This document shows positions 4,882 through 54,703 of a DNA stretch of 56,403 nucleotides, piece after piece. Origin of the DNA: a virus; the IMG/VR virus record IMGVR_UViG_3300047470_000274, positions 1 through 56,403 of that record. One strand, written 5' to 3'. The notes beneath the pieces were generated by a model. That model was not told where the DNA came from and made no database searches. It saw nothing but the letters and a program-made list of their open reading frames with translations. Position 1 is the stretch's first letter; every line of letters begins with the position of its first letter. A program made the translations under genes and the position numbers.

Positions 4882-5287
4882 GCCCGACCAAGTTGATGTC
4901 GAGTTGATGCGTCGGCTTTCCTATGGCTACACGGTCATTCAAGCCCACAGTCAACTCGGCATTAGCTTGTCCATGGCCAGAGACCGGGTTCGAGAGCTGA
5001 AGAGACACTCTGGTGCCCACACCCTACCGCACCTGATGTACTGGATGCATACTAACTACCACCTATGGCCCCAGGTGAGAAAGCATCCCACACCCAACCC
5101 GGGTGAGCTGAGGCTGGCGGTACTTCAGATGAGGGCTTGGGGCCATTCGGCCGAGGCGATTCAGACTAAGCTGTACCTCAGCAAAGCTGGGTATGAGCGC
5201 AGGATCAATGAGACACACCGTATAACCCGCACTAACAACGATGCTCATGCCGTCTCAGTGTGCTGGTCAGAGGACATGATCGTCTAG
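4859..5287 (+). CDS. helix-turn-helix DNA-binding protein
   Basis: 142 residues from a TTG start; an ATG at 4907 would remove the first 16 residues. Residues 10-50 (DQVDVELMRRLSYGYTVIQ followed by LGISLSMARDRVRELKR) read as a classic HTH with the recognition helix around SMARDRVREL. A second, weaker HTH-like repeat (LQMRAWGHSAEAIQTKLYLS) follows near residue 90. Lying immediately before the late promoter and terminase genes, it is a good candidate for a late-gene activator or a DNA-recognition partner of terminase. This role is inference from position. Confidence 0.55.
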   Translation: MGRPRRTRPDQVDVELMRRLSYGYTVIQAHSQLGISLSMARDRVRELKRHSGAHTLPHLMYWMHTNYHLWPQVRKHPTPNPGELRLAVLQMRAWGHSAEAIQTKLYLSKAGYERRINETHRITRTNNDAHAVSVCWSEDMIV

Positions 5288-5350
5288 CGTCGCCCCGTGT
5301 GGGTGATGGGTGACCGTCCCGTAAGGGTCCGGCCAACCGGCCGTAGTCCC

Positions 5351-5389
5351 TTGACAAGTCGCTCGTGAGATGCGATCATCAACATGATC
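5351..5389 (+). promoter_or_regulatory. late promoter with palindromic operator
   Basis: TTGACA at 5351-5356, 17 bases, GATCAT at 5374-5379. The -10 region is one arm of a perfect inverted repeat, GATCAT-CAAC-ATGATC (5374-5389), a natural site for repression or activation of the late operon. The 181-base gap 5288-5468 also holds a short CGGCC/GGCCG hairpin near 5331-5345 and nothing else evident. Confidence 0.5.
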
Positions 5390-5468
5390 TCGCCGGAGCG
5401 GGTCCCTTTTGCCCACGGGAGGGATTCGCTTCGGCGGGCGGTGTTTCTAAGATGCTGGGAGGAAGACC

Positions 5469-6131
5469 ATGAAACCGGCTACGGCTCGGGTGGTCGACTT
5501 CCGCGATGCCGAGGAGAGCCCCGACGAGGACGCTCGGCCAGTTAATGCCAATGGTGAACTCATGACCGGGAAGCAAGTCCGGGCACGAGCTCGTCGTAAG
5601 CTTCAGAAGGGCAAGAGGCTTGACGACGAAACCTTCGAGGCTTGGGCTGGCAAGCCAATCGACCAATGGGACATCGAGGAACTCGCGCGAGGTCGAACCC
5701 GTGATGGCGGGGGTCGTTTCAGAGGCAAGCCGCCTCAGTACATGCCCCGCGCGGTACACGAGCGAATCGCCGAGCGGTTCAAGATGCTGGTCAGGGATCA
5801 GCTGAACGTATCCTCGGTAACTGCCCTTGGGGTCATCCAGAACCTGCTGATCAATGAGGAACTGGACGACAAGGGCAAACCGATCGTGCCGGCAAGCACC
5901 AAGCTGGATGCTGCCAAATGGCTGGTCGAGCACGTGGTGGGTAAGGCTGTACAGCCTACTCAGACTGACGTCTCGGTGAAGCTGCAGGGCATTCTCGGTG
6001 CGGTCATGGTGAACCCGATCCTGGGTGACGCTGATGGACCGCCTGCTCTCCCCCGGGGCTACACGGCTGGTCACTTCGGTACTCGAGGTGAGCCGGTACT
6101 CGACGTAGAGTCGGAGTGGGAAGATGATTGA
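5469..6131 (+). CDS. putative terminase small subunit
   Basis: 220 residues, GGAGG six bases upstream. The C-terminal half (RAVHERIAERFKMLVRDQL ... STKLDAAKWLVEHVVGK) resembles small-terminase proteins, in which a helical core and the 'K.LDAAK.L...V.GK' segment precede the motor-binding tail. The N-terminal 80 residues are charged and probably disordered. The small subunit recognises viral DNA and hands it to the large subunit. Position, five genes from the capsid block and just before the large subunit, supports this; the family match is by eye only. Confidence 0.5.
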   Translation: MKPATARVVDFRDAEESPDEDARPVNANGELMTGKQVRARARRKLQKGKRLDDETFEAWAGKPIDQWDIEELARGRTRDGGGRFRGKPPQYMPRAVHERIAERFKMLVRDQLNVSSVTALGVIQNLLINEELDDKGKPIVPASTKLDAAKWLVEHVVGKAVQPTQTDVSVKLQGILGAVMVNPILGDADGPPALPRGYTAGHFGTRGEPVLDVESEWEDD

Positions 6132-6426
6132 CGCGGCCTGCCAGATCTGCGGTATAGTGGGAAAGACTGCCCATACCGAAGCGGAGGAGGCTGGGATTCG
6201 CAATCACAAGTTCTCCGAGAACGGGGAGCTGGTGACCACGGATCGCCGGCCCAAGGCCGTGGCTCAGACCCAAGCGCCTACGGTGATCATCCGAACGGTC
6301 GATACCTCACTCCGTCGGTTGCTTTTCCAGAAGGGTGTTCTCGACGATGCGGACCTCGCCTCTCTTTTCAACTTTGACCTCGGCTCTGCCCGAGATCGAG
6401 AAGCTGGGCCGGCTGAGGGAACCTAA
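6124..6426 (+). CDS. hypothetical protein with CxxC
   Basis: 100 residues overlapping the previous gene by eight bases. The N-terminus has CQICG, then an H-rich stretch, suggesting half of a zinc site; the C-terminus (TVIIRTVDTSLRRLLFQKGVLDDADL) is helical. The 3' end is overlapped for about 80 bases by the JAMM gene in another frame. Function unknown. Confidence 0.5.
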   Translation: MIDAACQICGIVGKTAHTEAEEAGIRNHKFSENGELVTTDRRPKAVAQTQAPTVIIRTVDTSLRRLLFQKGVLDDADLASLFNFDLGSARDREAGPAEGT

Positions 6427-6721
6427 TGAGGCTTGCGGGATCCTGCTGGATATCCCCTGGCGCAAGTCCGACGGCACCATGAGCTTCATCAAGGAGCTCC
6501 CCAACCGATCGATGCAATCGGGCAAGTACAAAATCAATCCCGTCGACTTGAGGTTGGTCCTGGAAGGCCTCGAGGATGTCGAGGATGTTGCCATCTGGCA
6601 TACCCACCCATCGGGCTTTCTGGGCCCCTCGGAAGGCGACTTGCTTTACCGCCCCGATCCCCAGATCTGGATGGTAGTAGTAGCCCTGACCGAGCAAGGC
6701 CCCGTAGCTACCTGGTTCTGA
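6347..6721 (+). CDS. JAB1/MPN (JAMM) metallopeptidase-domain protein
   Basis: 124 residues from the ATG at 6347 (a GTG at 6335 is the alternative). The complete JAMM zinc-protease signature is present: a Glu in PNEACGILL near residue 31, then HTHPSG...PSEGD near residues 85-97, with both zinc His and the Asp. In other phages this domain occurs in tail-tip assembly proteins beside NlpC/P60 domains; here it lies between terminase genes and no other capsid protease is evident. It may process a structural protein. Catalytic competence is well supported, the target is not. Confidence 0.7.
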   Translation: MRTSPLFSTLTSALPEIEKLGRLREPNEACGILLDIPWRKSDGTMSFIKELPNRSMQSGKYKINPVDLRLVLEGLEDVEDVAIWHTHPSGFLGPSEGDLLYRPDPQIWMVVVALTEQGPVATWF

Positions 6722-6733
6722 GAGGAGGATCTC

Positions 6734-7093
6734 ATGGTAAGGATCGACCCGACCCACTACGACAACTACAATGAGTACCAACTCGGCGGTTCGGAATACG
6801 GGGGTGTGGGGCCGACTCATAACACGGTCCAGCCCAAGGGCGCTGAGGCTCTCTCTGCCGGTGATCGGCTTCGACTGGGTTACCTCGTCGGCGACCTCAC
6901 CGACCCGCTCAACCAGCAGCCCGAGCTCAGCCTGGAAGACCGACGTCAGATGCTGGGGCTCAAGCCCGCCGGCGCAAGTCGGCCGGTATGGCTTGCCGGC
7001 ACAGGTCGAGTTCCCGAGGCCGAGATCCTGGGTATCGAATACCCCGATGAGATCGCCGAGCTGGATCCCGATGAGTCGGGAGGTATCGGATGA
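6734..7093 (+). CDS. hypothetical protein
   Basis: 119 residues with a strong RBS (GAGAGGAGG). It is acidic and Tyr-rich at the start (HYDNYNEYQLGGSEYGG), with a central LSLEDRRQMLGL segment and a DE-rich end. No family is recognised. Its stop overlaps the large-terminase start (ATGA), suggesting coupled expression with the packaging motor. Confidence 0.6.
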   Translation: MVRIDPTHYDNYNEYQLGGSEYGGVGPTHNTVQPKGAEALSAGDRLRLGYLVGDLTDPLNQQPELSLEDRRQMLGLKPAGASRPVWLAGTGRVPEAEILGIEYPDEIAELDPDESGGIG

Positions 7094-8469
7094 CCGCCCC
7101 ACCCCAGGGCAGGATCTTCCGGAAGGATCTTTACTTCCAGGAGACTGACTACTACCCACACAACGGCCAGCGCATCGTTCACTACAATGGCACCCGCCAC
7201 CGGGTCCTGGTGAACGGCCGACGGTGGGGCAAGACACTGTGCGGGGCCAAGGAAGCCGAGTGCATGGCTTTCGTGAAGAACTTCCTGGGTCAGCCTCAGA
7301 TCGGGTGGATCATCGGCCCGGAGTACACTGACTGCGAGAAGGAATTCCGGGTCATCTACGACTCGCTGCGGGCTTTGGGTGTGGACCAGGTTTCTGAGCG
7401 GTTCACCAACAACCCCGACAGCGGTAACATGCACATCAAGACCAAGTGGGGCTTCGATCTCCAGTGCCGGTCTGCTCGGCACCCTGAGAGCCTCGTCGGC
7501 GAAGGTCTTGACTTCGTGCTGATCGTGGAAGGTGGCCGGCAGAAGCGGAAGATGTGGGGTGACTATGTTCGCCCTGCACTCTCCGACAAACGAGGTTGGA
7601 GCTTCACTTCCGGGGTTCCCGAGGGGGCTTCTGAGACCTCGTTGCTGTACTCGCTGTACAACCGAGGGCAGGATCCCACCAAGAAGACGTGGTGGTCGCA
7701 GCAGATGCCCTCCTGGACGAATAACATCGTCTTCCCTGGTGGCCGTGAGGACCCCGAGATCATCGAGGCCCGCGATGACTTGACCGAGGATGAGTTCCGC
7801 CGGCAGTACGGGGCCGAATTCGTCGACAACATCGGTCGAGTGATGAAGGAATGGGACGACGATGACCACATCGCCGACCTGGAGTACAACCGCAAGTGGC
7901 CGCTGTATGCGGCGGTAGACTTCGGCTACACCAACGACTGGGTCTGGCTTTGGATCCAAACGGATGAGTGGCAGAATGTCTACGTCATCGGCGAACACCG
8001 ATTCCGGCTGAGGGACACTGAGGATATCGCTCGGCTGGAGTTCAAGCAACATCCTCTTATCTCCAAGCTAAGCACCATCTATCCCGACCCGGCCGCGCCT
8101 GATGATTCTGCCATTCTCAGGCGAACACTCGACAAGCCCACCATGCTCAACACGGGCGGCGAGTTGAAGACTCGGCTGAGCTTGATCAGGAATGCGCTGA
8201 AGCTGCGACCGGCGCATCTCCCAGATGGTCACCCCGAGAAGCGACCTCAGTTGCTTATCGACCGCAGCTGCAAGGACCTCATCTTTGAGATGAGGGAGGG
8301 CTACCGATGGCCCGAACGACGTAGTGAAGATCGGAACGACTCAGAACTGCCTATGGATAAGGACAACCACGGGCCGGAAGCACTGGGTCGATTTTTCAAG
8401 GGCCACATGGAGCCACGCACTGAGACTCGCCGATCTCGGCAGTCCAGTCTACGAGTGAGGAGGAGGTGA
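7090..8469 (+). CDS. terL: terminase large subunit
   Basis: 459 residues, ATP-driven DNA packaging motor and nuclease. The Walker A-like motif GRRWGKT is at residues 43-49, a Walker B DFVLIVE at 141-147, and the RNase-H-like nuclease begins with YAAVDFGYTND around residue 277, with a second acidic site in YPDPAAPDDS. Length and order suit the family. The gene overlaps the previous stop and is followed after four bases by the portal gene. Which DNA-end strategy it uses cannot be read from this protein by eye. Confidence 0.92.
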   Translation: MTAPPQGRIFRKDLYFQETDYYPHNGQRIVHYNGTRHRVLVNGRRWGKTLCGAKEAECMAFVKNFLGQPQIGWIIGPEYTDCEKEFRVIYDSLRALGVDQVSERFTNNPDSGNMHIKTKWGFDLQCRSARHPESLVGEGLDFVLIVEGGRQKRKMWGDYVRPALSDKRGWSFTSGVPEGASETSLLYSLYNRGQDPTKKTWWSQQMPSWTNNIVFPGGREDPEIIEARDDLTEDEFRRQYGAEFVDNIGRVMKEWDDDDHIADLEYNRKWPLYAAVDFGYTNDWVWLWIQTDEWQNVYVIGEHRFRLRDTEDIARLEFKQHPLISKLSTIYPDPAAPDDSAILRRTLDKPTMLNTGGELKTRLSLIRNALKLRPAHLPDGHPEKRPQLLIDRSCKDLIFEMREGYRWPERRSEDRNDSELPMDKDNHGPEALGRFFKGHMEPRTETRRSRQSSLRVRRR

Positions 8470-8473
8470 CGAC

Positions 8474-10231
8474 GTGAAGAGCTACGATGAACTCGGACCC
8501 TATGCCAACGTGCTTCAGCTTGGTGGTGCTGACGGCTATGACTGGTTGCCGCCTGCAGCCCGGGATCGAGCGAACGCCTACCTGAAGTACGACCAGATCT
8601 ACTGGAACGATGCCAATCAGTATCCGGTTCGATACCTGGATGGCGAGTTCCCCGTCTACGTCCCCAACGCTCGTACTGTGGTAGACACCACGGCCCACTA
8701 CTACCTCAAGGGTCTGCAGGTAAACCCCAAGGAGCCGGAGAACTCATCCAAGCTGACCGAGGCTCTTCGGAACTTCCTGCGGCGGGAGATGTTCTTCTCG
8801 AGGTTCCATACCGCCAAGCACACTGGGGTGGCCCGGGGCGACTACGTCTTCCACATGACGGCCGACCCGACGAAGCCCGAGGACAGCCGGCTTTCTCTGA
8901 CTGCCATCCACCCCAGCAAGGTGGTCCTCGAGGATGACCCGGAGGACTGCACTCGGGTAGTCGAGGCTCGGCTGGTGGAGCTGGTTCCACACCCCGACCC
9001 CGACAAGAAGGACCAGGCAGTCAAGGTACTTCGGTACTGGTATGAGGAGACCGGGCCGGCGGGGGTTGAGGACAACTTCTACCCCGAGCTCAACCCCGAT
9101 GATCTCCTGGACTACACCGGTATCAAGAGCACGGTACCGGGTGACCTGGGTGAGCGAACTCGCCGAGTATGGCGGGAAGAGCAGATCTTCAGCCGCGAGA
9201 AGAAGTGGTGGGAGGAGGACCGAGAGCTCCTTCGGACCACCCTCGAGCCCGAGCCGCTCCCGGACCCGATCGATACCATTCCCGTCTACTGGTTCACCAA
9301 CCAGCAGTGGGACAACGGCCCCTACGGCTTCTCAGAGCTCCGGGGCTTCGAACGTACCTTCCAGAGCACGAGCCAGGTCGTATCCGATCAGGGTACCTCG
9401 CTCAGCCTGGAGGGTCTCGGGGTATACGCCACCGATGGCGGTGCCCCGGTCAACAAGAATGGCCAGGCGGCTGACTGGGAAGTCGGCCCAGGCAAGGTCA
9501 TGGAGGTGCCGGCGGGTTCTTACTTCCGCCGAGTCGAGGGTGTGGGGTCGGTTCGGCCCAACATGGACCACATCGACTACTTGGAGTCCAAGATTCGTGA
9601 GGCGGGAGGCCTCTCGGATGTGGCTCTGGGTAGGGTGGATGTCCAGACAGCATCCTCCGGTATCGCCATGGCGATTAAGTTCATGCCCACGTTGGCCAAG
9701 CTGGACGAACGCGACAAGTCCGGCATCGACCGTCTGACCCAGCTCTTCTTCGACTGGCGAAAGTGGTACGAGGCCTACGAGGGTAGTAAGCTCGACGAGG
9801 AAATCGAAGTCACCATCGGCGACAAGCTGCCTACCGACAGGACGGGGCGGATCAACGAGCTGAACAACATGCTCGACCGCGGCGTCATCTCGAAGCAGTA
9901 CTACCGAGCTGAGATGCAGAAGCTCGGCTACGAGTTCCCGGAGGACATCGAAGACCAGATCGACGAAGAGAAGATGAAGGAAGCCGAGCAGAAGGCTGCG
10001 GCAGCTCCTGATCCTCTCCAGCAGAATGCGGTGGATGCAGCTTCTGGTGCCAAGGCACCGCCTCCCGGCAACCAGCCGGGCCAGGTAACCCAGAAGAAGA
10101 CCATCCTGAACCGCAGCAACAACAAGTCCAAGCCCAATGAGTCGGGCGGGACTGAGGCCAACCAATCGACAACCAAGCAGGCCAGGGGCGGGAAGCCCAC
10201 GGTCAATGCTCGGGTGCCGGCAGCCAAGTAA
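8474..10231 (+). CDS. portal protein
   Basis: 585 residues from a GTG with GAGGAGG upstream. The family features are the early Y-F-Q/D-rich crown region, the central segment around GFERTFQSTSQVVSDQGTSL and IDYLESKIREAGGLSDVALG (stem and tunnel region), and a charged, low-complexity C-terminus. The portal forms the dodecameric vertex through which DNA enters the head and to which the tail attaches. No MuF-type domain is fused at the C-terminus. Position between TerL and scaffold is classical. Confidence 0.88.
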   Translation: MKSYDELGPYANVLQLGGADGYDWLPPAARDRANAYLKYDQIYWNDANQYPVRYLDGEFPVYVPNARTVVDTTAHYYLKGLQVNPKEPENSSKLTEALRNFLRREMFFSRFHTAKHTGVARGDYVFHMTADPTKPEDSRLSLTAIHPSKVVLEDDPEDCTRVVEARLVELVPHPDPDKKDQAVKVLRYWYEETGPAGVEDNFYPELNPDDLLDYTGIKSTVPGDLGERTRRVWREEQIFSREKKWWEEDRELLRTTLEPEPLPDPIDTIPVYWFTNQQWDNGPYGFSELRGFERTFQSTSQVVSDQGTSLSLEGLGVYATDGGAPVNKNGQAADWEVGPGKVMEVPAGSYFRRVEGVGSVRPNMDHIDYLESKIREAGGLSDVALGRVDVQTASSGIAMAIKFMPTLAKLDERDKSGIDRLTQLFFDWRKWYEAYEGSKLDEEIEVTIGDKLPTDRTGRINELNNMLDRGVISKQYYRAEMQKLGYEFPEDIEDQIDEEKMKEAEQKAAAAPDPLQQNAVDAASGAKAPPPGNQPGQVTQKKTILNRSNNKSKPNESGGTEANQSTTKQARGGKPTVNARVPAAK

Positions 10232-10234
10232 ATC

Positions 10235-10249
10235 GGGGCGGGATGCCCC
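10235..10249 (+). terminator. short hairpin between portal and scaffold genes
   Basis: GGGGC (10235-10239) and GCCCC (10245-10249) with a 5-base loop, four bases after the portal stop and ahead of the scaffold RBS. Probably an attenuator or mRNA-processing hairpin that lets the capsid genes be expressed differently from the portal. Confidence 0.3.
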
Positions 10250-10269
10250 ATAGAACTAAGGAGCGCGAG

Positions 10270-11004
10270 ATGCGCCGGATGAAGCACACACAGCAGGCCT
10301 GGTGGCTGAACCTCACTGCCTCGATCATCGGCTTCGATGACAACGGCGATGGTGGGGGAGCCGGCGATGGCGGCGCAGGTGATGGTGGTGATGGGGGCGC
10401 TGCCTCTGGAGCCGCTGGAGATGGCGACGGATCGGCGGCAGGCGATGGTGGGGCATCATCTGGTGGCGAAGACGTCTCGGGCCTCAAGAGTGCCCTCGAG
10501 AAGGAGCGCACCGATCGCAAGGCTCTCGAGAAGGAGCTGAAGGGCTTCCGGACTGCCGCCCAGACCAAGGCCGATGCCGAGAAGACCGAGGTCCAGCGAC
10601 TGACCGACGCCAACGCCGCGGCGATCGCCAAGACCACCAAGCTGGCAGAGGGGTTCAAGACCTCGGCGGTTCGCACGGCAGTTCTGGAGGCTGCCGGCAA
10701 GGCCAAGTTCCGCGATGCCACCGACGCCTTGACGGCTGATGTGCTCGCCGCCATCGGTGTGGAACAGGATGAGGACGACCCCACACAGGTCACCATCGAT
10801 GCTGCCACCGTGACCGAGGCCATCAAGCAGCTCGCCAAGAAGAAGCCTCACTACCTCGCAACTACCACCCCGGCCGGCGGTCAGGGCGGAGGCACCCCGA
10901 GCGGTTCCAAGTTCGGCGGGTCCAACAACAATGGCAAGGTCGACCCGACAAAGGCGGCTCTTGCCGAACGATACCCCGCACTCCGCGGACGTATCGGCAA
11001 CTAA
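10270..11004 (+). CDS. scaffolding protein
   Basis: 244 residues from the ATG at 10270, chosen because AAGGAG lies six bases upstream. A Gly/Asp/Ala low-complexity region (residues about 25-75) is followed by a long charged coiled coil (LKSALEKERTDRKALEKELK onward) and a Lys/Arg-containing tail, the usual layout of internal scaffolds that guide capsid assembly through a basic C-terminus. It sits directly before decoration and capsid genes. The hydrophobic N-terminal patch (WWLNLTASIIGFDD) is unusual for a scaffold. Confidence 0.8.
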   Translation: MRRMKHTQQAWWLNLTASIIGFDDNGDGGGAGDGGAGDGGDGGAASGAAGDGDGSAAGDGGASSGGEDVSGLKSALEKERTDRKALEKELKGFRTAAQTKADAEKTEVQRLTDANAAAIAKTTKLAEGFKTSAVRTAVLEAAGKAKFRDATDALTADVLAAIGVEQDEDDPTQVTIDAATVTEAIKQLAKKKPHYLATTTPAGGQGGGTPSGSKFGGSNNNGKVDPTKAALAERYPALRGRIGN

Positions 11005-11025
11005 CCAGAAGGGGAGCTAGACGCC

Positions 11026-11481
11026 ATGGGTGCAGCTCGCTATGACAAGTACGAACCGATCTCCGGTGGTTTCCGTGCGCCGCTGGCCGCCGACCTCACC
11101 TTCGACGCGGCGGGCCACTTCGGCCCGAAGGCCGTCTCCCTCAACGCGAGCGGCCAGGTCGTCGTCGGTACCGCCGGGCAGTCCGGTGGGGTCGGGGTCC
11201 TGATCAAGAACGTGCCCCTCTACCCGAACCTGGGCAACGTCGCCGGCGCGGTCAACCAGGCCGTGCCCATCGGTGGCAAGGCGGGCAACGTCGTCGACAT
11301 CATGACCCACGGTGAGATCGTCTCGATCCCCGGCCTCGCGGCGGGTACCGTCTACTACGCAGCCTCCGACGGCAGCATCACGGCGACTGCTCCCACTCCG
11401 GCCGGCACCAACGGCTACATGGTCGGCTACACGGTCGAAGCCGATCGCCTGGTGGTCCGGTTCCAGCGGGTCCAGGCCTAA
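11026..11481 (+). CDS. head decoration/capsid-stabilising protein
   Basis: 151 residues rich in Gly, Val and Thr and predicted mostly beta. The C-terminal half (VDIMTHGEIVSI...AAGTVYYAA...GYMVGYTVEADRLVVRFQ) matches the layout of small actinophage decoration proteins that trimerise on the capsid surface. Codons become markedly GC-ending here and in the capsid gene, consistent with very high expression. It directly precedes the major capsid gene. Confidence 0.7.
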   Translation: MGAARYDKYEPISGGFRAPLAADLTFDAAGHFGPKAVSLNASGQVVVGTAGQSGGVGVLIKNVPLYPNLGNVAGAVNQAVPIGGKAGNVVDIMTHGEIVSIPGLAAGTVYYAASDGSITATAPTPAGTNGYMVGYTVEADRLVVRFQRVQA

Positions 11482-11524
11482 CCACCCTCTTCCATAGCCC
11501 GCTAAGGAGTAAGGACTCCCACAC

Positions 11525-12703: not shown

Positions 12704-12711
12704 TGAGCTGA

Positions 12712-47252: not shown

Positions 47253-47522
47253 TCAGAGATCTCGTGAGACGGGGTTGAAGGGCTCCATCAGGACTTCGGT
47301 TATACCTCTCAGGGCGTCTCTCTCGTCTCTGTTGAAGAGGTTACCCATCATGGCCATGAACATCCCCGAGATCGAAGCCCTCATCACGTGGTCGAACTCC
47401 AGCTCGGGCGAGTTGCAGTCATCTCGGGGACAGAACTTCAGCTGTCTGTCCCCCACCTTGATTGTCTCGACCTGTCGGAAGATGGTCTGGCAGACGCAGC
47501 ACTGAAAGATGGGACCAAGCAT
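47253..47522 (-). CDS. zinc-ribbon hypothetical protein
   Basis: 89 residues, GCCGAGGAGG upstream of the ATG. FQCCVCQ near residue 8 and FCPRDDC near 31 form a four-Cys ribbon; the remainder is helical and Met-rich (SISGMFMAMMGNLFNRDERDAL). No family is recognised. It may bind nucleic acid or a host protein. Confidence 0.65.
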   Translation of the reverse strand: MLGPIFQCCVCQTIFRQVETIKVGDRQLKFCPRDDCNSPELEFDHVMRASISGMFMAMMGNLFNRDERDALRGITEVLMEPFNPVSRDL

Positions 47523-47558
47523 GGGTTCCTCCTCGGCGGGGGTGGTGGCGATATACCT

Positions 47559-47587
47559 ACCCTATAGCCCTTGCCTACGGCCGTCAA
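47559..47587 (-). promoter_or_regulatory. leftward promoter
   Basis: Minus strand: TTGACG (47587-47582), 17 bases, TAGGGT (47564-47559), serving the zinc-ribbon gene. Confidence 0.7.
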
Positions 47588-47611
47588 GGAACCCAGCAAA
47601 GTAACATTCCG

Positions 47612-47812
47612 TCAAGGTGCCGTGCAGTGTATACTACTTGCGGGCGGCGTCAAGCCAGGGCTAGGGCTGACCTCCACACCCATGCTGGGGGGCCTCTCGA
47701 CATAGCAGTGGTGGCTGGGTGCCTCACCCCTGAAGAGCAGGGCCGCGATGATGAGCGCCGGCGGAAGGAAGAGACCCGCGATGATCCAGTCAGCCTGGTA
47801 CTTGGTGATCAC
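47612..47812 (-). CDS. small membrane protein
   Basis: 66 residues from a GTG with GAGGAG upstream. One transmembrane helix (WIIAGLFLPPALIIAALLF) and a Pro/Ser-rich tail. It lies 58 bases after the gene at 47871 and is probably co-transcribed with it. Function unknown. Confidence 0.5.
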   Translation of the reverse strand: MITKYQADWIIAGLFLPPALIIAALLFRGEAPSHHCYVERPPSMGVEVSPSPGLTPPASSIHCTAP

Positions 47813-47870
47813 TGTAACTCCTCAGATACGACGAGAGGCCCCCGGTGTGAGGGCCCCTCGGATGGATGAA

Positions 47871-48299
47871 CTACTCGACGATGTAGCCGTGTCGGGCGAA
47901 CAGGTTCTTGTTGGTCATGCGCCAGTCGAGGTAGGAGTGCTTGCGAGACTCAGCCATGAGCCAGTCCTGGGCGGTCTGGGTCAGATCGATCAGGTCGATG
48001 CCCCCGCCTTCCCAGGCCTCTGAGAAGAACAGGGCGCCGCCGACGATGCCGTGGTCGGCCGGGTACTGGGACAAGTACTGGGCTCGGGGATTCCACGGGA
48101 GCTGGCGGTCATAGCCGTCGTCGTCGATCACCATCACGAAGTCGTTGGCTCGGGCCACCTCAGTTCTCACCTGGCACATGTACCGGATGTTGGCTCGGTC
48201 CCAGAGCTCCCGAAGAGGCAACTCCAGCAACTGGAAGTCGCCGGTGTGGTCAGTGGATACGTAGAGGGCCTTGAGCACTCGGTCTTTCCAGTCGGGCAT
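47871..48299 (-). CDS. hypothetical protein, DUF3846-like
   Basis: 142 residues. The N-terminal KALYVSTDHTGDFQLLELPL and the middle MVIDDDGYDRQLPWNPRAQYL, then GIVGGALFF, follow the pattern of DUF3846-type proteins (an Asn-containing loop after a short acidic strand and a Gly-Gly turn), which are common in actinophages and plasmids without known function. Match by eye only. Confidence 0.5.
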   Translation of the reverse strand: MPDWKDRVLKALYVSTDHTGDFQLLELPLRELWDRANIRYMCQVRTEVARANDFVMVIDDDGYDRQLPWNPRAQYLSQYPADHGIVGGALFFSEAWEGGGIDLIDLTQTAQDWLMAESRKHSYLDWRMTNKNLFARHGYIVE

Positions 48300-48335
48300 G
48301 TCAGTCCTTCAGCTGGGTGTGGAAGTGGTAAGGCA

Positions 48336-48364
48336 ATCTTGCCATGGCCCGGCTACGGTGTCAA
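48336..48364 (-). promoter_or_regulatory. leftward promoter
   Basis: Minus strand: TTGACA (48364-48359), 17 bases, CAAGAT (48341-48336); GAAGGA precedes the ATG at 48299. Confidence 0.6.
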
Positions 48365-48366
48365 GG

Positions 48367-48573
48367 CTAGCCCTCGGGCTCGATGCAAGGAGCTACCGCA
48401 GATGTTACGGTAAGCGGTTGACCACATACGCTGCAGCCGACCTGCTCTCCGATGTCTCCCTCCGGCTCGTCGACCGCTACCGGCATGCCGTCCACCGGAT
48501 CCACGATGACCGATACGGATCGGCATGTCCACTTGATCCAGTCGTGCTGCCGAGTTGATACCGGGAGGGCCAT
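48367..48573 (-). CDS. small zinc-ribbon protein
   Basis: 68 residues with AGGAGTCTCC before the ATG. The C-terminal part has CSVCGQPLT and a further Cys near the end (APCIEPEG), with WTCRS earlier. The 5' half is beta-like (SVSVIVDPVDGMPVAVDE). It follows the gene ending at 48582 by eight bases. Confidence 0.6.
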   Translation of the reverse strand: MALPVSTRQHDWIKWTCRSVSVIVDPVDGMPVAVDEPEGDIGEQVGCSVCGQPLTVTSAVAPCIEPEG

Positions 48574-48581
48574 GGAGACTC

Positions 48582-49202
48582 CTATCGTCGAGCTCGGCGG
48601 CGTCCGCCGGCAATGGCAAGGGGGTCATACTTTGGCGGGCGAGCCGTGCCAACAGTAGTTCTGATGAACTCCTCACGGGCACCGCAGATGGTGCAGCGTC
48701 GGTCGGCGGGATTGACCAGGCCGTCGAGAGCCGATCGCCGCAGGGAGTGATGACGGTTGAACCAACGGAATACCGTGGGTCGACGGCAGTAGGTGCACCA
48801 GGTATGCGGCTCATCGGTAGCCTCCAACTTCGGCTTCCAGATGACGATCGCAGTACGCTGGATGCGCTTGCCCTCCGCATCGAGGACGATGGCTCCGTTC
48901 TTACCTTTATGGTAAACCGGGCGGCCGTTCTTAGTGACCCTGACAATGCGCTGGGGAGGGCCGAAGGCGATACCGCGCGACTGGATGGTGCCGTCATATA
49001 CCCTTCCACCCTTGAGCTCTGTTGCCATTCGTCGGAAGGCATCGGCATACTTCTCATAGTCCTTCCTGGCCCAGGCCCCATCCTGCTCTCTCTGCACGAT
49101 AAGCCGCCAGGGCATCTTGCCAGGCAGCTGAACCGTCTTCGGTACTGAGCGGAAGAAGTCCCGGTACTTGGGGTCTTCAAGCAACTCGGGGAGGGTGATC
49201 AA
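48582..49202 (-). CDS. hypothetical protein with two Cys pairs
   Basis: 206 residues from a TTG at 49202. The TTG is chosen because CGACCGAGGAG lies nine bases upstream and the promoter places the mRNA start downstream of the more distal ATG codons (49241, 49238). It has a Lys/Arg-rich middle (VTKNGRPVYHKGKNG), then WCTYCRRP, HH, and RCTICGARE, which looks like a zinc-bound HNH-like or treble-clef fold without an obvious catalytic set. Confidence 0.6.
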   Translation of the reverse strand: MITLPELLEDPKYRDFFRSVPKTVQLPGKMPWRLIVQREQDGAWARKDYEKYADAFRRMATELKGGRVYDGTIQSRGIAFGPPQRIVRVTKNGRPVYHKGKNGAIVLDAEGKRIQRTAIVIWKPKLEATDEPHTWCTYCRRPTVFRWFNRHHSLRRSALDGLVNPADRRCTICGAREEFIRTTVGTARPPKYDPLAIAGGRRRARR

Positions 49203-49234
49203 TGCCCCAGGCTCCTCGGTCGATGGTGAATGGT

Positions 49235-49272
49235 GCATCATGATGCTATAGCACCTGCCTATCGCTGGTCAA
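49235..49272 (-). promoter_or_regulatory. leftward promoter with palindromic operator
   Basis: Minus strand: TTGACC (49272-49267), 18 bases, TAGCAT (49248-49243). The palindrome GCATCATGATGC (49235-49246) overlaps the -10 box and the start of transcription. Confidence 0.65.
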
Positions 49273-49313
49273 GGGCACGTAGTACTATGCCAGAATATCA
49301 CCTCCCTCAAAGT

Positions 49314-49343
49314 TTGCCCCTTTTTATGGTCGCGCGATAGGGT
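49314..49343 (+). promoter_or_regulatory. rightward promoter, divergent
   Basis: TTGCCC (49314-49319), 18 bases, TAGGGT (49338-49343). It faces away from the leftward promoter about 40 bases upstream and drives the primase-helicase operon. Confidence 0.6.
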
Positions 49344-49384
49344 GATTTTGCTGACAAAAATGACTGACGACGGAAGGCTTAGTC

Positions 49385-49636
49385 ATGGCTTACGAACAGC
49401 CACAGAAGATGCCAGCTGACATGGATGAACTGGATGCCATGTGCGGCAGGGTGTACAAGCAAGGGGTGGAGGCGGGTAAAACCCAGCTTCGGCAAGACAT
49501 CAAGGACTACCTACTGACGAAGTTCTTCGGGGCTCGGGGCGATCGCCGGCGAGCTGACCCGAAGGAGCCCAAGGTACAGGCTATCCGAGAGCTCACCGAG
49601 GGACTGTACGCCAAGTTCGAGGACGGAACGCTTTGA
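49385..49636 (+). CDS. hypothetical protein
   Basis: 83 residues, RBS CGGAAGG. A helical charged protein with GKTQLRQDIKDYLLTKFFGARGDRRRAD, a possible nucleic-acid-contact patch. No family is recognised. The next gene starts within its stop. Confidence 0.6.
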   Translation: MAYEQPQKMPADMDELDAMCGRVYKQGVEAGKTQLRQDIKDYLLTKFFGARGDRRRADPKEPKVQAIRELTEGLYAKFEDGTL

Positions 49637-49761
49637 TCATCCAGGTAGACCCCACTCAACTGAAGCCCGGCGACAAGGTCATCGAGATCAACGACTACGA
49701 TCAAGATGGCTGCCACTGTGATGTAGTTGTCACGGTTGAGCGAGAAGAAGGTACTCAGTGA
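49633..49761 (+). CDS. small acidic protein
   Basis: 42 residues from a TTG overlapping the previous stop. A KPGDKVIEINDYDQDGCHCDVVVTVE stretch suggests a tiny beta-barrel with two Cys. It is coupled to the primase-helicase by a GTGA overlap. Confidence 0.5.
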   Translation: MIIQVDPTQLKPGDKVIEINDYDQDGCHCDVVVTVEREEGTQ

Positions 49762-51806
49762 CACCCCAGCCCTCAGTCGACGTAGCCCGAGCTCTTCGGA
49801 TCATCTCCCGGGCATGGGGTAAGCAAGACGGCTATGTGTTCTTTCCACACATCGACCGAGCAGAACAGGAAGCTGCGGGCTTGCGTCGAGCCGGCTTCCA
49901 TGAGAATCAGGCCTTCAAGTGGCCCGAAGAACGCAAGGCAGTACTCGCTCACATGGCGGCCCACACAGACAAGGATCTGTATTGGTGCCCCTCCATGTTC
50001 GAGGGCCCCGACCGCAAGACCGAACTCGCCATGGACGAGCATGCCCTATGGGCGGACCTCGATGAAGCTGACCCCCGGGGGCTGGTAGGCAACCAGGAGT
50101 TCAGGCCCACCATCGCCTGGGAATCATCGCCGGGCAGGTACCAGGGGCTCTGGATCGGTAACCCCGCGCTCGGCGATTTCCAGGGGGCAAGCTGGCCCGG
50201 CAATGAGAACCAGCGACTGAGCTACTTCCTCGACGCGGATAAGTCGGGGTGGGATACCACCCAGCTGCTGCGTATCCCGGGTTGGCCCAACTGGAAGCCG
50301 GAACACCGGCGGAAGAACGGTACACCGCCCATCGGGAAGCTGCTCTGGGACCGCGGCCCGATGTACGAGATGCAGGACTTCAAAGAGCTCCCCGAGGTAA
50401 AGGGAGCACTTACGGCGGACAAGCTCGGGGATATCTTCGAAGCCGAGATCGATGCCATCGACCGACACAAGGTCATCGCTCGGATCAAGCTGAAGCTCAA
50501 CCAGCGCGCCCGGGATCTGCTGAATGCCCGGTCAGTCAGTGGCGACCGCAGTGAGAACCTCTGGTATCTCATCAGATGCCTGGCCGATGCCGGCTGCACC
50601 GTACAAGAGATCGTGGCCATCGCTCGCGCCTCTGTGTGGAATAAGTTCGACGGTCGTGCCGATGAGATCAAGCGCCTGATCACTGAGGCGACGAAGGCCA
50701 TCGATCAGCGCGATCCGGAAGTCACGGAGATCATCGAGGAAGAGCAGGCACCCAAGCCTCGCCCCCAACGATTGGCGGCCTTCCTCAAGGATGTCCAGCC
50801 CCCCACCTGGCTTATCGAGGGCATTGCCACCGAGGGCTCCGTTGGGTTCATTGCCGGCGCACCGAAGTCCTTCAAGTCCTGGGTTGCCCTCGACATGGCG
50901 CTCTCAGTGGCCACTGGGGCTCTGTTCCTCGACTACTTCAGGGTCATCAAGCCGGGCAGGGTACTGTACATCCAGGAGGAAGACTCGCCGGTTACGGTCA
51001 AGAGCCGCAGTAGGAAGATCTGGCGCGGCAAGACCGTAGATAAACTCAAGCTCGAGAAGGACGGCCTCTACTGGGAGCCGGGGAATCCCGACGAGTTCGA
51101 CCCGAACGTGGATATCTACTGCATGGAGGGTTTCACAGTCTCCGAGGGTCACTGGCAGGAATGGCTCGATGAGACCCTAACGGAGGCCGCCGAGGCTGAA
51201 GACCCTTACGTGCTCATCATCATTGACACCCTTATGAATGTGGCGGGCGACGTCGATGAGAACAAGAGCCAGCAGATGACCACGATGATCTACAAGCCGA
51301 TGAAGGTTCTCATGCGCAAGCATGGTGCCGCCCTCCGCTTCGTTCACCACATGGGCAAGGGCGGAGACGACCGACGGGGCGGGCAGAAGATGCTGGGTGG
51401 TACTGCCAACCATGCCTGGGCCGAAGATAGCCTCTACATCTCACGCGATCCCAAGAAGCGCGGCACCATCAGGGCCGAGTTCGAGTCCAAGTCAGCCCCC
51501 GAGAAGGTCTACATGATCGGAGGCCTCGACAACAAGGGATGGACCCCCTTCTTCGAACCCCAGAAGGCGGAAGAACCCTCCACACCAACGACACCGGGCC
51601 GTAAGCCCCGAGTACCCCGCCAGGCTAAGGGAGAATCCGCTGGCAACCCACTGCTAGACGTGCTGGCACAGGGCGGAGGCTGGCTGGTTAAGGATCTGGC
51701 CGAGGCCGCCGGCAAGACCTACAGCCCGACCTATAAGTCACTCAGGGCATTGGAAGAAAAGGGTCTGGTTGCCAGGCAAGGCCGACTGTGGTCGCTTAAG
51801 ATCTGA
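49758..51806 (+). CDS. primase-helicase (AEP-like primase fused to RepA-like ATPase)
   Basis: 682 residues from a GTG. Residues 1-230 resemble archaeo-eukaryotic-type phage primases (LWADLDEADPRG with the D-x-D pair near 97, PTIAWESSPGRYQGLW, LLRIPGWPNWK). A linker leads to a RepA/AAA_25-type helicase: Walker A FIAGAPKSFKSW near 365, Walker B YVLIIIDTLMN near 490, and HHMGKGGDDRRGG as a later motif. A winged-helix domain ends the protein (LAEAAGKTYSPTYKSLRALEEKGLV). It would start replication and unwind DNA for the PolA enzyme. An inverted-repeat-rich gap follows. Confidence 0.85.
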   Translation: MTPQPSVDVARALRIISRAWGKQDGYVFFPHIDRAEQEAAGLRRAGFHENQAFKWPEERKAVLAHMAAHTDKDLYWCPSMFEGPDRKTELAMDEHALWADLDEADPRGLVGNQEFRPTIAWESSPGRYQGLWIGNPALGDFQGASWPGNENQRLSYFLDADKSGWDTTQLLRIPGWPNWKPEHRRKNGTPPIGKLLWDRGPMYEMQDFKELPEVKGALTADKLGDIFEAEIDAIDRHKVIARIKLKLNQRARDLLNARSVSGDRSENLWYLIRCLADAGCTVQEIVAIARASVWNKFDGRADEIKRLITEATKAIDQRDPEVTEIIEEEQAPKPRPQRLAAFLKDVQPPTWLIEGIATEGSVGFIAGAPKSFKSWVALDMALSVATGALFLDYFRVIKPGRVLYIQEEDSPVTVKSRSRKIWRGKTVDKLKLEKDGLYWEPGNPDEFDPNVDIYCMEGFTVSEGHWQEWLDETLTEAAEAEDPYVLIIIDTLMNVAGDVDENKSQQMTTMIYKPMKVLMRKHGAALRFVHHMGKGGDDRRGGQKMLGGTANHAWAEDSLYISRDPKKRGTIRAEFESKSAPEKVYMIGGLDNKGWTPFFEPQKAEEPSTPTTPGRKPRVPRQAKGESAGNPLLDVLAQGGGWLVKDLAEAAGKTYSPTYKSLRALEEKGLVARQGRLWSLKI

Positions 51807-51995
51807 CCTGCCTTATGCGCGTATACAGGCGAGACCTACTAAGTTTGCTCACCGAATTTGTCATGACTAATTTTCACGACGTGGATGACAAACAAAGGCT
51901 TTCCCTACGCGCACAGGTGCGGTTCATAATCAGCTTCGCTGATATAATGAATCTTCGAGAAATGACCAATTGACTGACTACGGAAGTTAACCCCC
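51807..51995 (+). promoter_or_regulatory. AT-rich control region, candidate replication origin
   Basis: It holds two promoter-like elements: TTGCTC (51845) 17 bases TAATTT (51868), and an exact TATAAT at 51943-51948. Inverted repeats are TTTGTCAT/ATGACAAA (51857-51864, 51885-51892) and the palindrome ATCAGC-TTC-GCTGAT (51929-51943), which overlaps the TATAAT. It is clearly more AT-rich than the flanks and lies between the primase-helicase and a winged-helix protein, where an origin is often found. Confidence 0.5.
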
Positions 51996-52304
51996 ATGGC
52001 TAATTCCAAACTCCCACCCCAAGGCATACATCCAGTCGCCTGGAACAACATCAAAGCCAAGCGTAACCGAGAACTCAAAGCCGAAACAAAGGCTCTCTAC
52101 CAGCTTTCCCCCATCCTATGGGCGGTGGTTAAGGGTTTCGACACTCGGGATGAGCTGATGGATCGACTGGACCTTACCAAGGCCCAGGTGGACCGTAAGA
52201 TTGTGGTGGCAGTGGAAGCTGGCTATGTGCACTTCTGGGGGGGTAAATACCAACCCCTCGACGAGCGACATAAGCAACTGAAGAAACGATGGGCCAAGCC
52301 CTGA
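51996..52304 (+). CDS. winged-helix DNA-binding protein
   Basis: 102 residues. The middle (SPILWAVVKGFDTRDELMDR, LTKAQVDRKIVVAVEAGYVHFW) is a winged HTH: helix 2, recognition helix and beta wing. The protein is basic overall. It is probably controlled by the palindrome overlapping its -10 box, and may bind there itself. The gene at 52437 encodes a diverged copy. Confidence 0.65.
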   Translation: MANSKLPPQGIHPVAWNNIKAKRNRELKAETKALYQLSPILWAVVKGFDTRDELMDRLDLTKAQVDRKIVVAVEAGYVHFWGGKYQPLDERHKQLKKRWAKP

Positions 52305-52341
52305 CCTTGGTGGGGTTTGCGACCTTGCCTTGCTGTCAACC

Positions 52342-52370
52342 CGCCCTCCGCAGTCGCTGCGGGACGGGCC
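52342..52370 (+). terminator. hairpin terminator
   Basis: Nested arms GCCC/GGGC and CGCAG-TCG-CTGCG make a strong stem 38 bases after the stop at 52304, without a T tract. Confidence 0.55.
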
Positions 52371-52436
52371 GCACAAAACAAAATCGAACCTCCCTCGGTG
52401 ATATGATGGGCTGGGGGGATAGTGATGGAGGAGAAC

Positions 52437-52784
52437 ATGGAAACACCGGACTGGCGAGAAGACAATGATCTCACGACTGACCAGCAGTACAACCTGACCT
52501 ACCTGTCAGAACTGATGGTAGAACAGCCCATCATCTGGGTAATGATCCAGGGAGTAACGACGTCACAGACCATGGCTGCACGGCTCTGCTGGCCGCATGA
52601 CTGGGTCATGATCGGGCTCAGGCAGTACAAGGAGGATGGCTTCGTGGTTGATCGGGAAGGGCTGAGGTCGATCGAGTGGCACTTCTCGGATCAGATGGCT
52701 GATACCGAGATCGTCGACATGGTCGCCTGGGTCCACACCCAGAAGGGTAAAGGGGGTCTCTTTAGCCGGAATGAGAATGGGTGA
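52437..52784 (+). CDS. winged-helix-like protein, paralogue of the gene at 51996
   Basis: 115 residues from the ATG at 52437, which lies after GGAGGAG; an ATG at 52425 and a GTG at 52422 are alternatives. QPIIWVMIQGVTTSQTMAAR, then WVMIGLRQYKEDGFVVDR, aligns with PILWAVVKGFDTRDELMDR, then VDRKIVVAVEAGYV in the protein at 51996. The protein is acidic, unlike its basic paralogue, so one may modulate the other. Confidence 0.55.
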   Translation: METPDWREDNDLTTDQQYNLTYLSELMVEQPIIWVMIQGVTTSQTMAARLCWPHDWVMIGLRQYKEDGFVVDREGLRSIEWHFSDQMADTEIVDMVAWVHTQKGKGGLFSRNENG

Positions 52785-52811
52785 GGTGGAGAAGATAGGC
52801 TGACGGGGTGC

Positions 52812-52840
52812 TTGCTGCCGGCTGGCTGCGCTGATAGGGT
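52812..52840 (+). promoter_or_regulatory. promoter, leaderless type
   Basis: TTGCTG (52812-52817), 17 bases, TAGGGT (52835-52840), seven bases, ATG at 52848. Confidence 0.6.
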
Positions 52841-52847
52841 ACTGGGC

Positions 52848-53099
52848 ATGACGACATTCATCGTACTGGTAGTCGGCGCGGCTGTCGGCCTGCACAACGG
52901 GCTGGGCTTCGAGGCCGGGTGGTCGCTGATAATGGCGGTCGTAGGTGTGGGAGCCATGATGCTCTGGGTGAAGCCGAGGGGGACTGGGGACCACCGGGTG
53001 ATAGTGCAGGACATGAACACGGGCGAGACCAAGTACCAGCCGATGGACAACGACACGGTTCGGTACTTGAACACGCGGAAGAACATGGGGGATAACTGA
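52848..53099 (+). CDS. two-helix membrane protein
   Basis: 83 residues, start fixed by the leaderless promoter. Two hydrophobic segments (FIVLVVGAAVGL; WSLIMAVVGVGAMMLW) are followed by a soluble C-terminal 45 residues (VIVQDMNTGETKYQPMDNDT). No family is recognised. Its stop overlaps the next start (TGATG). Confidence 0.6.
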   Translation: MTTFIVLVVGAAVGLHNGLGFEAGWSLIMAVVGVGAMMLWVKPRGTGDHRVIVQDMNTGETKYQPMDNDTVRYLNTRKNMGDN

Positions 53100-53593
53100 T
53101 GGTACGGCCCCTCGCTGATCCTGGTGTGGATGCACTCGATGACAAGGTGAGAACTCGGCTGGCTGAGATCAGGGCAGCTGCTGGGGTGGCTGAGTCTCAG
53201 ATCACGATGGAAGTGCTGTTCTTCCTGCCGAAGGCCTTCCTCGAGCAGTACGCGGACATGTTCACTAAGGCTGTGAAGTCTGACGGGGGTGAGAGTGCGC
53301 GGAACGCCGCACAGCAGGCTGCTGGTGATCTGGGCAAGGCGGCTGGGGTGAGAGGGGGGGCCAAGACTGGGCAGAAGAGGTACAAGAAGAGCTTCACGGT
53401 CCTGGATGAGAAGGCTCTGAATCTCAAGGGCATGATGGACAAGCGCCTTCGGATGATGGCTCGAGACATCGAGACGGTGCTGGCCGGTGGGGAGATTAAG
53501 AAGGCCTCCTCACGATGTGGTGACTGTGGCACATTCGTGCAGGACCGCTGGAAGTACTGCCCCATGGATGGCAGCGAGCTGACTCACGACTGA
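53099..53593 (+). CDS. hypothetical protein with C-terminal zinc ribbon
   Basis: 164 residues. A long helical body with an Ala/Gly/Lys-rich basic centre (AAGVRGGAKTGQKRYKKSFT) ends in a zinc ribbon, CGDCGTFVQDRWKYCPMDG (C-x2-C near 139, C near 153). It may bind DNA or RNA. No family is recognised. It is the last confident gene before a sparse region. Confidence 0.6.
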   Translation: MVRPLADPGVDALDDKVRTRLAEIRAAAGVAESQITMEVLFFLPKAFLEQYADMFTKAVKSDGGESARNAAQQAAGDLGKAAGVRGGAKTGQKRYKKSFTVLDEKALNLKGMMDKRLRMMARDIETVLAGGEIKKASSRCGDCGTFVQDRWKYCPMDGSELTHD

Positions 53594-53839
53594 GAGATGG
53601 GCACGGATCGATGGCACCTTATGAGGGCAGAAAACTTGCCTGATATGGGGTGCCATTCTTCCTGTCGGGCTTATAGATAGGGTAGGAGAAGAGCCTGATT
53701 GCACATGATGGGTGCGACTCGATGATTGGGTGCTTGATGATTGACTGGGGATAGGTGAGGCACGCGGGGTTAGGGTCCGGTGAGTTTGGGGTAGGGTGGG
53801 TATGATGGGCTTGGGAGGGGGGTGTCCGGGTGAGGTGAC
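53594..53839 (+). other. gene-poor G-rich stretch with G-quadruplex potential
   Basis: No convincing ORF on either strand. From 53788 to 53822 there are six separate runs of three or more G on the plus strand, linked by one to six bases, enough for a stable quadruplex. Several GGGTxxGGG-like units lie upstream as well. A TAGGGTAGGAGAAGAG element near 53678 could be a -10 and RBS without a gene. Confidence 0.5.
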
Positions 53840-54031
53840 GTGGCTCGGGGATATGATTGTGATGGGCTACATTGCGTCCGGGTGAACGGAACTAGACGTT
53901 GTTCTGGGGGTATACTTCGGGTGAAAAGGGCCACATCCAACGCTTGCTGCGGAGCTAGAACATTCTCGGATCTCCGTGTGCAAGACCCGGTCTGTGGTCA
54001 ACACTCCAAAGAGCACTCGACCGCGTGGTGA
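53840..54031 (+). CDS. Cys-rich small protein
   Basis: 63 residues from a GTG with GAGGTG upstream. Seven Cys, in the order CDGLHC, then NGTRRCSGG, ACCGAR and VCGQHSKEH, resemble the small zinc-binding phage proteins with NG-x-x-C and C-x-x-H motifs. The start and coding status are uncertain because of the odd base composition around it, but the Cys/His spacing is unlikely by chance. Confidence 0.45.
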   Translation: MARGYDCDGLHCVRVNGTRRCSGGILRVKRATSNACCGARTFSDLRVQDPVCGQHSKEHSTAW

Positions 54032-54229
54032 GGGAACACTCTGGAGAGCACTACCCGGACTGGGGAGTTATCCAGGGTAAATTCTGGGAAGGATCCGAGA
54101 AAAAGCTGGGGAATTCTCCCGTGAGGCCGTGAACTTTCTCTGAAAAATTCTCCCAAGTATCCACCTAGACCACAGTGAGGCTGTAAGTCCATAGGTGGGG
54201 GATGGTACTGTACCGCTGGGTACGTAACA
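54032..54229. other. non-coding repeat region, possible origin or control site
   Basis: A 19-base imperfect direct repeat (ACACTC..AGAGCACT) begins at about 54000 and again at 54036, AATTCTCCC occurs twice (about 54111 and 54146), the palindrome GGTACTGTACC is at 54204-54214, and two DnaA-box-like words occur (TTATCCAGG near 54067, GTATCCACC near 54156). No convincing gene. Confidence 0.4.
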
Positions 54230-54703
54230 TTACTTTCCAGCTTTTTCCAGGAGGAAATTATGGCAAACTTTGCACGCAAACTTAGAAATGGTCATTGGTT
54301 GGTCATCGAAATTACCCCCAAAGTGACAACAAATTGCTGACTCTGGAAGGTATGATATCTTGGTGCGTGGTCTTATCTGTGCGAGCTTGACATATGACTC
54401 TGCTGTCAAGTCCCGTCGACCACCCTGCGCATGGCCGCCTACGTCAGACGTGTGTACATATGCCACGTAGCTGCTGGGAAAGTCGGAAAACCTGCGGATT
54501 CTGCTCGGGTCGCCTATGTCACTCATGGTGTGGGATGTCACCATAAAGTGCCATGTAATACCCTGAACTACGTCATCCCGTCCAAATCGGACATTTGCCA
54601 CGTAATCCTCGTAGGGGAGGAAGGGGCGGTATGGGTCAATCATACCATTCCCGTCAAAGGGACCAAACTCCACGGATACCGAGAAATCGGACACTAGAGA
54701 CAT
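54230..54703 (-). CDS. hypothetical protein of atypical composition
   Basis: 157 residues from the ATG at 54703; no clear RBS. The first 100 residues look like a real folded protein (VSVEFGPFDGNGMIDPYRPF, VVQGITWHFMVTSHTMSDIG), while the end has ICCHF and CKVCHNF, a possible zinc site. Codons use far more A/T-ending triplets than neighbours, a sign of recent transfer or relaxed selection. CTTGACA/TGTCAAG arms (54386-54392, 54404-54410) inside the gene form an operator-like inverted repeat. Confidence 0.5.
   Translation of the reverse strand: MSLVSDFSVSVEFGPFDGNGMIDPYRPFLPYEDYVANVRFGRDDVVQGITWHFMVTSHTMSDIGDPSRIRRFSDFPSSYVAYVHTSDVGGHAQGGRRDLTAESYVKLAQIRPRTKISYLPESAICCHFGGNFDDQPMTISKFACKVCHNFLLEKAGK

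Follow-up and report, generated by a model that had tools for sequence, protein, structure and literature searches.

Several archaeo-eukaryotic primases (AEPs) with a helix bundle read GTG. The GTG of ssiA in the IncQ plasmid RSF1010 has been proposed as the point where RepB′ starts its primer (PMC4434180), and the primase of pRN1 needs GTG in its template, reads it by means of its helix bundle, and makes the first dinucleotide opposite the two bases 5′ of it (PMC8076596). GTG is likewise a strong site for NrS-1 PrimPol and ORF904 (PMC12205980), and the GTG of the pRN1 origin stem-loop is dispensable (PMC4234260). Here, we analyze a word with the core TGTGG, which contains GTG, in IMG/VR record IMGVR_UViG_3300047470_000274, a 56.4-kb phage record that encodes terminase, portal, capsid, and tape measure and whose whole length (positions 1 to 56,403) we call the window. 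In the usual view, a primase recognizes about three bases and can begin at nearly any position, and lagging-strand starts are not expected to be encoded in genome sequence. The signal, (G)TGTGG(A/G), recurs about every 1.4 kb per strand in the window phage and in dozens of relatives, and it is most likely a template-strand start site at which the phage's own RepB′-type primase primes Okazaki fragments.

The original prediction was that a 9-mer, GGTGTGGGA, is heavily over-represented on both strands, with less than one copy per strand expected. All 15 exact copies that it had located, 11 on the plus strand and 4 on the minus strand, were found in place:

5086..5094, minus strand, copy of GGTGTGGGA
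18253..18261, plus strand, copy of GGTGTGGGA
28096..28104, plus strand, copy of GGTGTGGGA
30976..30984, plus strand, copy of GGTGTGGGA
31647..31655, plus strand, copy of GGTGTGGGA
34174..34182, plus strand, copy of GGTGTGGGA
36765..36773, minus strand, copy of GGTGTGGGA
37547..37555, plus strand, copy of GGTGTGGGA
40304..40312, plus strand, copy of GGTGTGGGA
40360..40368, minus strand, copy of GGTGTGGGA
41602..41610, minus strand, copy of GGTGTGGGA
45893..45901, plus strand, copy of GGTGTGGGA
46833..46841, plus strand, copy of GGTGTGGGA
52944..52952, plus strand, copy of GGTGTGGGA
54527..54535, plus strand, copy of GGTGTGGGA

An order-2 Markov model gave an expectation of 0.49 copies, and when k-mers were counted against a Markov background, GGTGTGGGA ranked first for over-representation among the 9-mers of the window (z 20.7). 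The shorter core GGTGTGG, put at about 30 plus-strand and 20 minus-strand copies, was counted 32 and 23 times. GGTGTGGGA is the commonest spelling within a broader signal, [G/T]GTGTGG[A/G], the parts of which were also in excess over the Markov expectation: GTGTGG (85 observed, 25 expected), GTGTGGA (42 and 4.7), GGTGTGGA (26 and 1.9), and GTGTGGGA (20 and 1.2). Alignment of the 85 GTGTGG copies limited the information to one base before the word, which was G in 55 and T in 25, and one or two bases after it, the first being A in 42 and G in 33. We define the site of the window phage as GTGTGGR, which occurs 75 times in 56 kb, 40 times on the plus strand and 35 times on the minus strand. A bias toward the right half had been suggested, and it holds for the GGTGTGGGA spelling only, as the GTGTGGR sites taken together show an even distribution across the window:

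562..56357, both strands, GTGTGGR array of 75 sites, with enrichment, per-strand even spacing, and conservation
Plus-strand starts: 1085 2568 3291 5297 6804 7379 9540 10757 12718 14068 16264 18254 18979 20666 21962 24014 25626 26830 28097 29076 30977 31264 31648 32447 34175 35558 37548 38599 40305 41942 44102 45011 45894 46834 48317 50634 52945 53124 54528 56351
Minus-strand copies (lowest plus coordinate of GTGTGG): 563 1818 2040 2320 3808 5017 5088 7156 8987 10781 11519 14487 15064 15676 19836 21168 23916 25770 26969 27659 29251 31793 34387 36767 37573 40362 41604 42651 44853 47674 49845 49961 51580 52733 55945

A megablast search for similar DNA in named phages returned none, leaving the window without a close named relative, and a scan of bacterial genomes gave three distant matches and no host. 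Fourteen related contigs were found by way of the capsid protein and were read whole or nearly whole, with G003 and G009 being fragments. GTGTGG was the most or second most enriched 6-mer in all 14, at GC contents of 44 to 62%. Thus, the word is present, and ranked first or second, in relatives, from which its absence had been named as a refutation. In window DNA that could be aligned to seven relatives, at about 73 to 75% identity, 48 to 68% of the sites were kept compared to 15 to 20% of 7-mers generally, a three- to fourfold higher retention that is slightly overstated because the site class accepts A or G at the last base. Relatives also hold further sites at positions where the window has none.

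The original prediction had held that protein coding does not explain the copies, and synonymous-codon shuffles within each genome agreed. Genes were taken from our own simple gene caller, and 56 coding copies were present in the window compared to about 14 after shuffling (sense, 30 and 6.3; antisense, 26 and 7.6); the 75 GTGTGGR sites were four times the synonymous-codon null, on both strands. Pooled over 15 genomes, there were 408 sense copies compared to 103 shuffled and 355 antisense copies compared to 104 shuffled. Site density in the window was 2.27 per kb between genes and 1.17 per kb within them. A GC-rich genome does have further words with a bias, CGAGGA and GCCGGC among them, and an artifact of composition or codon usage would account for the word on those grounds. 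Such an artifact is contradicted by both the Markov and the synonymous-codon nulls, as well as by intergenic enrichment, conservation, and even spacing; moreover, the other enriched words that were tested, GCCGGCR and CGAGGAG, were clustered instead of even. We therefore reject the artifact as having next to no chance of being correct, and the word withstood the modeling of codon context by which it might have been undone.

Analysis of position and strand, which had been suggested as a check, indicated that sites are spaced very evenly on each strand and that the two strands are mutually independent. The coefficient of variation (CV) of spacing in the window was 0.41 on the plus strand and 0.60 on the minus strand, where chance gives about 1, around a mean same-strand gap of about 1.4 kb. 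The evenness held against a null with positions drawn from same-strand, one-mismatch copies of the word (p 5e-5 and 4.5e-4), and with the same null the pooled sum of z was −90 for a null standard deviation (SD) of 5.5. The median same-strand gap in the 15 genomes was 1,478 bp, and pooled gaps showed a deficit below 600 bp and above 4 kb and an excess at 1 to 3 kb, while distances between a site and its closest neighbor on the opposite strand were random. When 2,145 6-mers were ranked by evenness over the 15 genomes, GTGTGG came first (CV 0.587; median, 0.986; SD, 0.07), followed by its own shifted pieces. Evenness alone, with no prior, selects one word among about a thousand in phage after phage. 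Inside long gaps, the top one-mismatch variants kept TGTGG (GTGTGGC, z 2.7; CTGTGGR, 2.1; GTGTGGT, 1.4), with z values that are modest for 20 variants examined. We conclude that spacing is constrained on each strand and independent between strands, as expected of priming sites, and that the intervals, about 1 to 2 kb, fit Okazaki fragments.

The candidate reader of the word, and the genes for other proteins of the replication module, are as follows:

49758..51806, plus strand, RepB′-type AEP primase with RepA/DnaB-like helicase, proposed reader of the word (Pfam, hhalign, AlphaFold, Foldseek)
37719..40295, plus strand, DNA polymerase I, presumed primer extender (phrog_17)
31441..32928, plus strand, superfamily 2 (SF2)-type DNA helicase of the co-inherited replication module (phrog_62)
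40631..41695, plus strand, Cas4/RecB-like exonuclease, a rival reader (phrog_1218, PF12705)
41812..42621, plus strand, Sak4-like ATPase/annealing protein of a rival module (phrog_124)

The protein encoded at 49758 to 51806 carries PF16793 (RepB_primase), matched at 46.4 bits against a curated cutoff of 24.3, and PF13481 (AAA_25). Its domains are a primase (residues approximately 1 to 210), a helix bundle (approximately 219 to 330), a helicase (approximately 340 to 600), and a C-terminal winged helix. The family profile aligned with RSF1010-type RepB′ (hhalign, 3.5e-6) and with RepA (1.9e-14); the RepB′ query had 100% matches among deposited IncQ proteins. The aspartates expected of AEP catalysis (motif I DxD/E and motif III D) correspond to D100, D102, and D161, which were invariant in 43 homologues. 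An AlphaFold model with a mean predicted local distance difference test score of 88 for the whole protein, and 90 for residues 1 to 335, contained an AEP domain, a helix bundle, a ring-helicase domain, and the C-terminal winged helix. Foldseek matched the model to RepB′ (3H20, E 1.5e-10; 3H25, E 9e-6), to the pRN1 primase (9aam, E 4e-4), weakly to the DNA-bound pRN1 helix bundle (9rtj, E 0.2, prob 0.95), and further to the S-2L primase-polymerase and RepA. By profile and fold, the protein is a RepB′-RepA fusion, and primer synthesis is its predicted activity. A homologue was found in all 12 near-complete relatives. We note that deposited phage records (L074 to L084 and similar) often label this protein "RecA-like DNA recombinase," "DNA recombinase," or "ASCE ATPase"; phrog_3123, annotated as "unknown function," and the "RecA-like DNA recombinase" label should be read as primase-helicase.

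The word follows this primase across phages. Unbiased word scans of named phages with a RepB primase, read whole or nearly whole, returned GTGTGG/GGTGTGG in Shrew and Triscuit; GTGTGG in Dre3, Yakult, Emalyn, Muddy, and Pseudomonas phage PMBT14; TGTGGCC in Eleri, Koji, McGalleon, and Bonino; and CTGTGGG in Brad. In most of 80 loci found by way of the primase alone, a TGTGG word ranked first or close to it, preceded by G in one large group, by C in another, and by A in one. On a tree of the primase domain (82 rows), the base before TGTGG required 8 changes compared to 24.8 for shuffled labels, with none of 200 shuffles as low, and 4 changes when only labeled rows were considered. In 39 primase-bearing genomes, the best TGTGG 6-mer had a median enrichment rank of 1 of about 2,000, and a TGTGG word was the most even 6-mer in 30 of the 39. 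Of 8 genomes without the primase (Krampus, Wollypog, Kurnik, T7, lambda, D29, Bxb1, and TM4), by comparison, none ranked it first for evenness, and its enrichment ranks were 98 to 872; Krampus has a TOPRIM primase, and T7 and Bxb1 match the family profile in the helicase part only. The Streptomyces phage KimJongPhill was picked as primase negative for want of PF16793, yet its most regular 6-mer was GTGTGG. Because of that evenly spaced word, a divergent RepB-type primase (L144:3-2393) with no Pfam match was picked out by profile comparison, and the phage was moved to the positive group, a move made after its word was seen. Finally, phages that share the host strain Microbacterium foliorum NRRL B-24224 fell into three classes by primase: GTGTGG/GGTGTGG in Triscuit, TGTGGCC in Koji and Bonino, and no word in Krampus. 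We conclude that, with the exceptions given below, the word follows primase lineage.

Comparison with the described systems is consistent with this assignment. Like RSF1010 with ssiA and ssiB, the phages have a homologous primase and helicase and a proposed start word that contains GTG. In an IncQ1 relative of RSF1010, the RepB of which is identical to the RepB′ query, the origin (L145:1340-1770) contains exactly one TGTGG per strand, in TTGTGGGG and GGTGTGGGG, and each is a TGTGGGG. The plus-strand copy reads GGCGCGGTTATCAGCGCC-CTT-GTG-GGG, placing GTG three bases past a possible hairpin as published for ssiA nucleotides 28 to 33, and the minus-strand copy reads TTTGGTGTGGGG. We assign the two copies to ssiA and ssiB, an assignment of our own that is supporting but not decisive, because, by a rough estimate, a stretch of this kind would have a single TGTGG on each strand by chance with a probability of about one in eight and because the predicted DNA fold of the stretch favors a different hairpin. 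Unlike the phage, RSF1010 has one 40-nucleotide hairpin site per strand and a leading-strand mode only (PMC4434180), whereas each strand of the phage genome has tens of short sites without hairpins, and primase and helicase are joined in one protein. The phage protein resembles pRN1 ORF904 and NrS-1 PrimPol in being an AEP with a helix bundle, its fold matching the pRN1 primase and bundle, and in the proposed sequence-specific GTG start; the motif of those enzymes, unlike that of the phage, is three bases (PMC8076596, PMC12205980).

A template-strand word that starts Okazaki fragments is known from T7, the TOPRIM primase of which acts at sites with a 5′-GTC core. The phage word is alike in its proposed role, but the T7 primase is unrelated, and in T7 the words GGGTC, TGGTC, and GTGTC occur densely and lack even spacing. 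We found no report of genome-wide spaced primase sites or arrays in phages in the open-license literature.

Other readers of the word were considered. The original prediction had proposed a Chi-like recombination word, a binding site for a phage or host protein, or a packaging or DNA-modification motif. A packaging or modification motif would not predict even spacing per strand with independence between strands. Words read by the host, whether Chi, chromosome segregation, uptake, or restriction/modification motifs, are enriched in some phages, and Chi words, like this one, are short, strand specific, G/T rich, and over-represented. However, Chi is fixed by the recombination enzyme of the host, whereas among phages of the M. 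foliorum strain the word differs, or is missing, according to the primase, and PMBT14 shares GTGTGG with actinobacteriophages; host Chi is rejected on this evidence, and any host-read word is very unlikely. The proposed binding site thus stands in broad terms for a phage protein and falls for a host-read word.

Two further alternatives look to proteins that the phage itself encodes. A Chi-like word might, rather than act in priming, control the Cas4/RecB-like exonuclease, SF2 helicase, and Sak4 recombination system of the phage; it would have the expected short, G/T-rich, strand-specific form, and these genes are co-inherited with the primase. Yet distant homologues of Cas4 and Sak4 occur without the word in Krampus, Wollypog, and Kurnik, Brad has the word with a weak Cas4 match and Sak4 undetected, the IncQ1 plasmid has TGTGGGG in its origin while annotating RepA, RepB, and RepC and no such exonuclease, and spacing of about 1 to 2 kb per strand is not obviously predicted by Chi. 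We regard this explanation as improbable. The same co-inheritance would allow a single- or double-stranded DNA site for another protein of the module, such as polymerase I, the SF2 helicase, or a protein like single-stranded DNA-binding protein, acting for example in fork restart. This too seems quite improbable, as D29, Bxb1, and Kurnik have distant polymerase I homologues without the word, and no precedent was found for GTG-type reading by those proteins. The primase was chosen because its relatives read GTG and the strand-wise spacing falls at Okazaki lengths, and also because distant homologues of Cas4, Sak4, or polymerase I occur in phages without the word.

Several observations weigh against the primase as reader. 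Primase-bearing G060, G048, and the L213/L218/L220 group lack a TGTGG word or its enrichment, and their primases may have lost sequence specificity or may read another word. In G044, G045, and Serbin the word is enriched but its spacing is not even, the signal of Polewnik is weak, and in G058 the most even word is bare TGTGG. Polymerase I, the SF2 helicase, Cas4, Sak4, and the primase are inherited together as a replication module, and therefore co-occurrence alone cannot single out primase, polymerase, helicase, or exonuclease. Group statistics overstate independence because the genomes are related, and P values across genomes carry no correction for relatedness. Residues that separate G-type from C-type primases were confounded with ancestry. 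No excess folding was detected beside sites in seven genomes, and copies of ssi-type hairpin sites, as in RSF1010, were rejected because no hairpins flank the phage sites.

If the primase is the reader, the ring-helicase part would open the fork while the primase tethered to it searches the single strand thus exposed. The helix bundle would bind TGTGG, preferring G before it and A or G after it, and the catalytic domain would lay a short primer beside TGTGG, which DNA polymerase I would extend into an Okazaki fragment. Primers would thus start at the word, and the spacing of sites would set fragment length. Selection would keep sites on both strands at intervals of roughly 1 to 2 kb, so as to serve forks in both directions.

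Site number differs between strands in many of these phages, by up to 2.4-fold in named phages such as Muddy (50/21), Emalyn, Serbin, and Bonino (41/22), and in Serbin the first 16 kb of one strand has almost no sites. The imbalance may reflect the direction of forks or the position of an origin, and if sites act on the lagging template, it should show the prevailing fork direction.

Other observations concern different features. Relatives G004, G016, G012, L177, L199, and L163/L164 have other high-copy words (TGCCGGCA, CGCCGGCG, AGCTAGCTA, GAACTAGA, GATTGCA, and CTTGACA), which may be regulator, promoter, or modification sites. Within the window, ARAGORN called a tRNA-Leu(caa) that is probably spurious inside the gene for the terminase large subunit (7090 to 8469, plus strand), and one protein had a partial match to phrog_1128:

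8226..8321, minus strand, tRNA-Leu(caa) call
2583..3104, plus strand, 173-amino-acid protein labeled enoyl-CoA hydratase-like

More generally, phages with the RepB′-RepA protein probably carry a genome-encoded Okazaki grid of 6- to 8-base primase sites on both strands at 1- to 2-kb intervals, in which the base before TGTGG would be a specificity code that coevolves with the primase, such that specificity, and possibly fork direction, could be read from sequence. If so, the placement of Okazaki fragments would become testable by sequence editing, primase specificity would be predictable from genomes, and the large family phrog_3123 would gain a function, including in mycobacteriophage Muddy.

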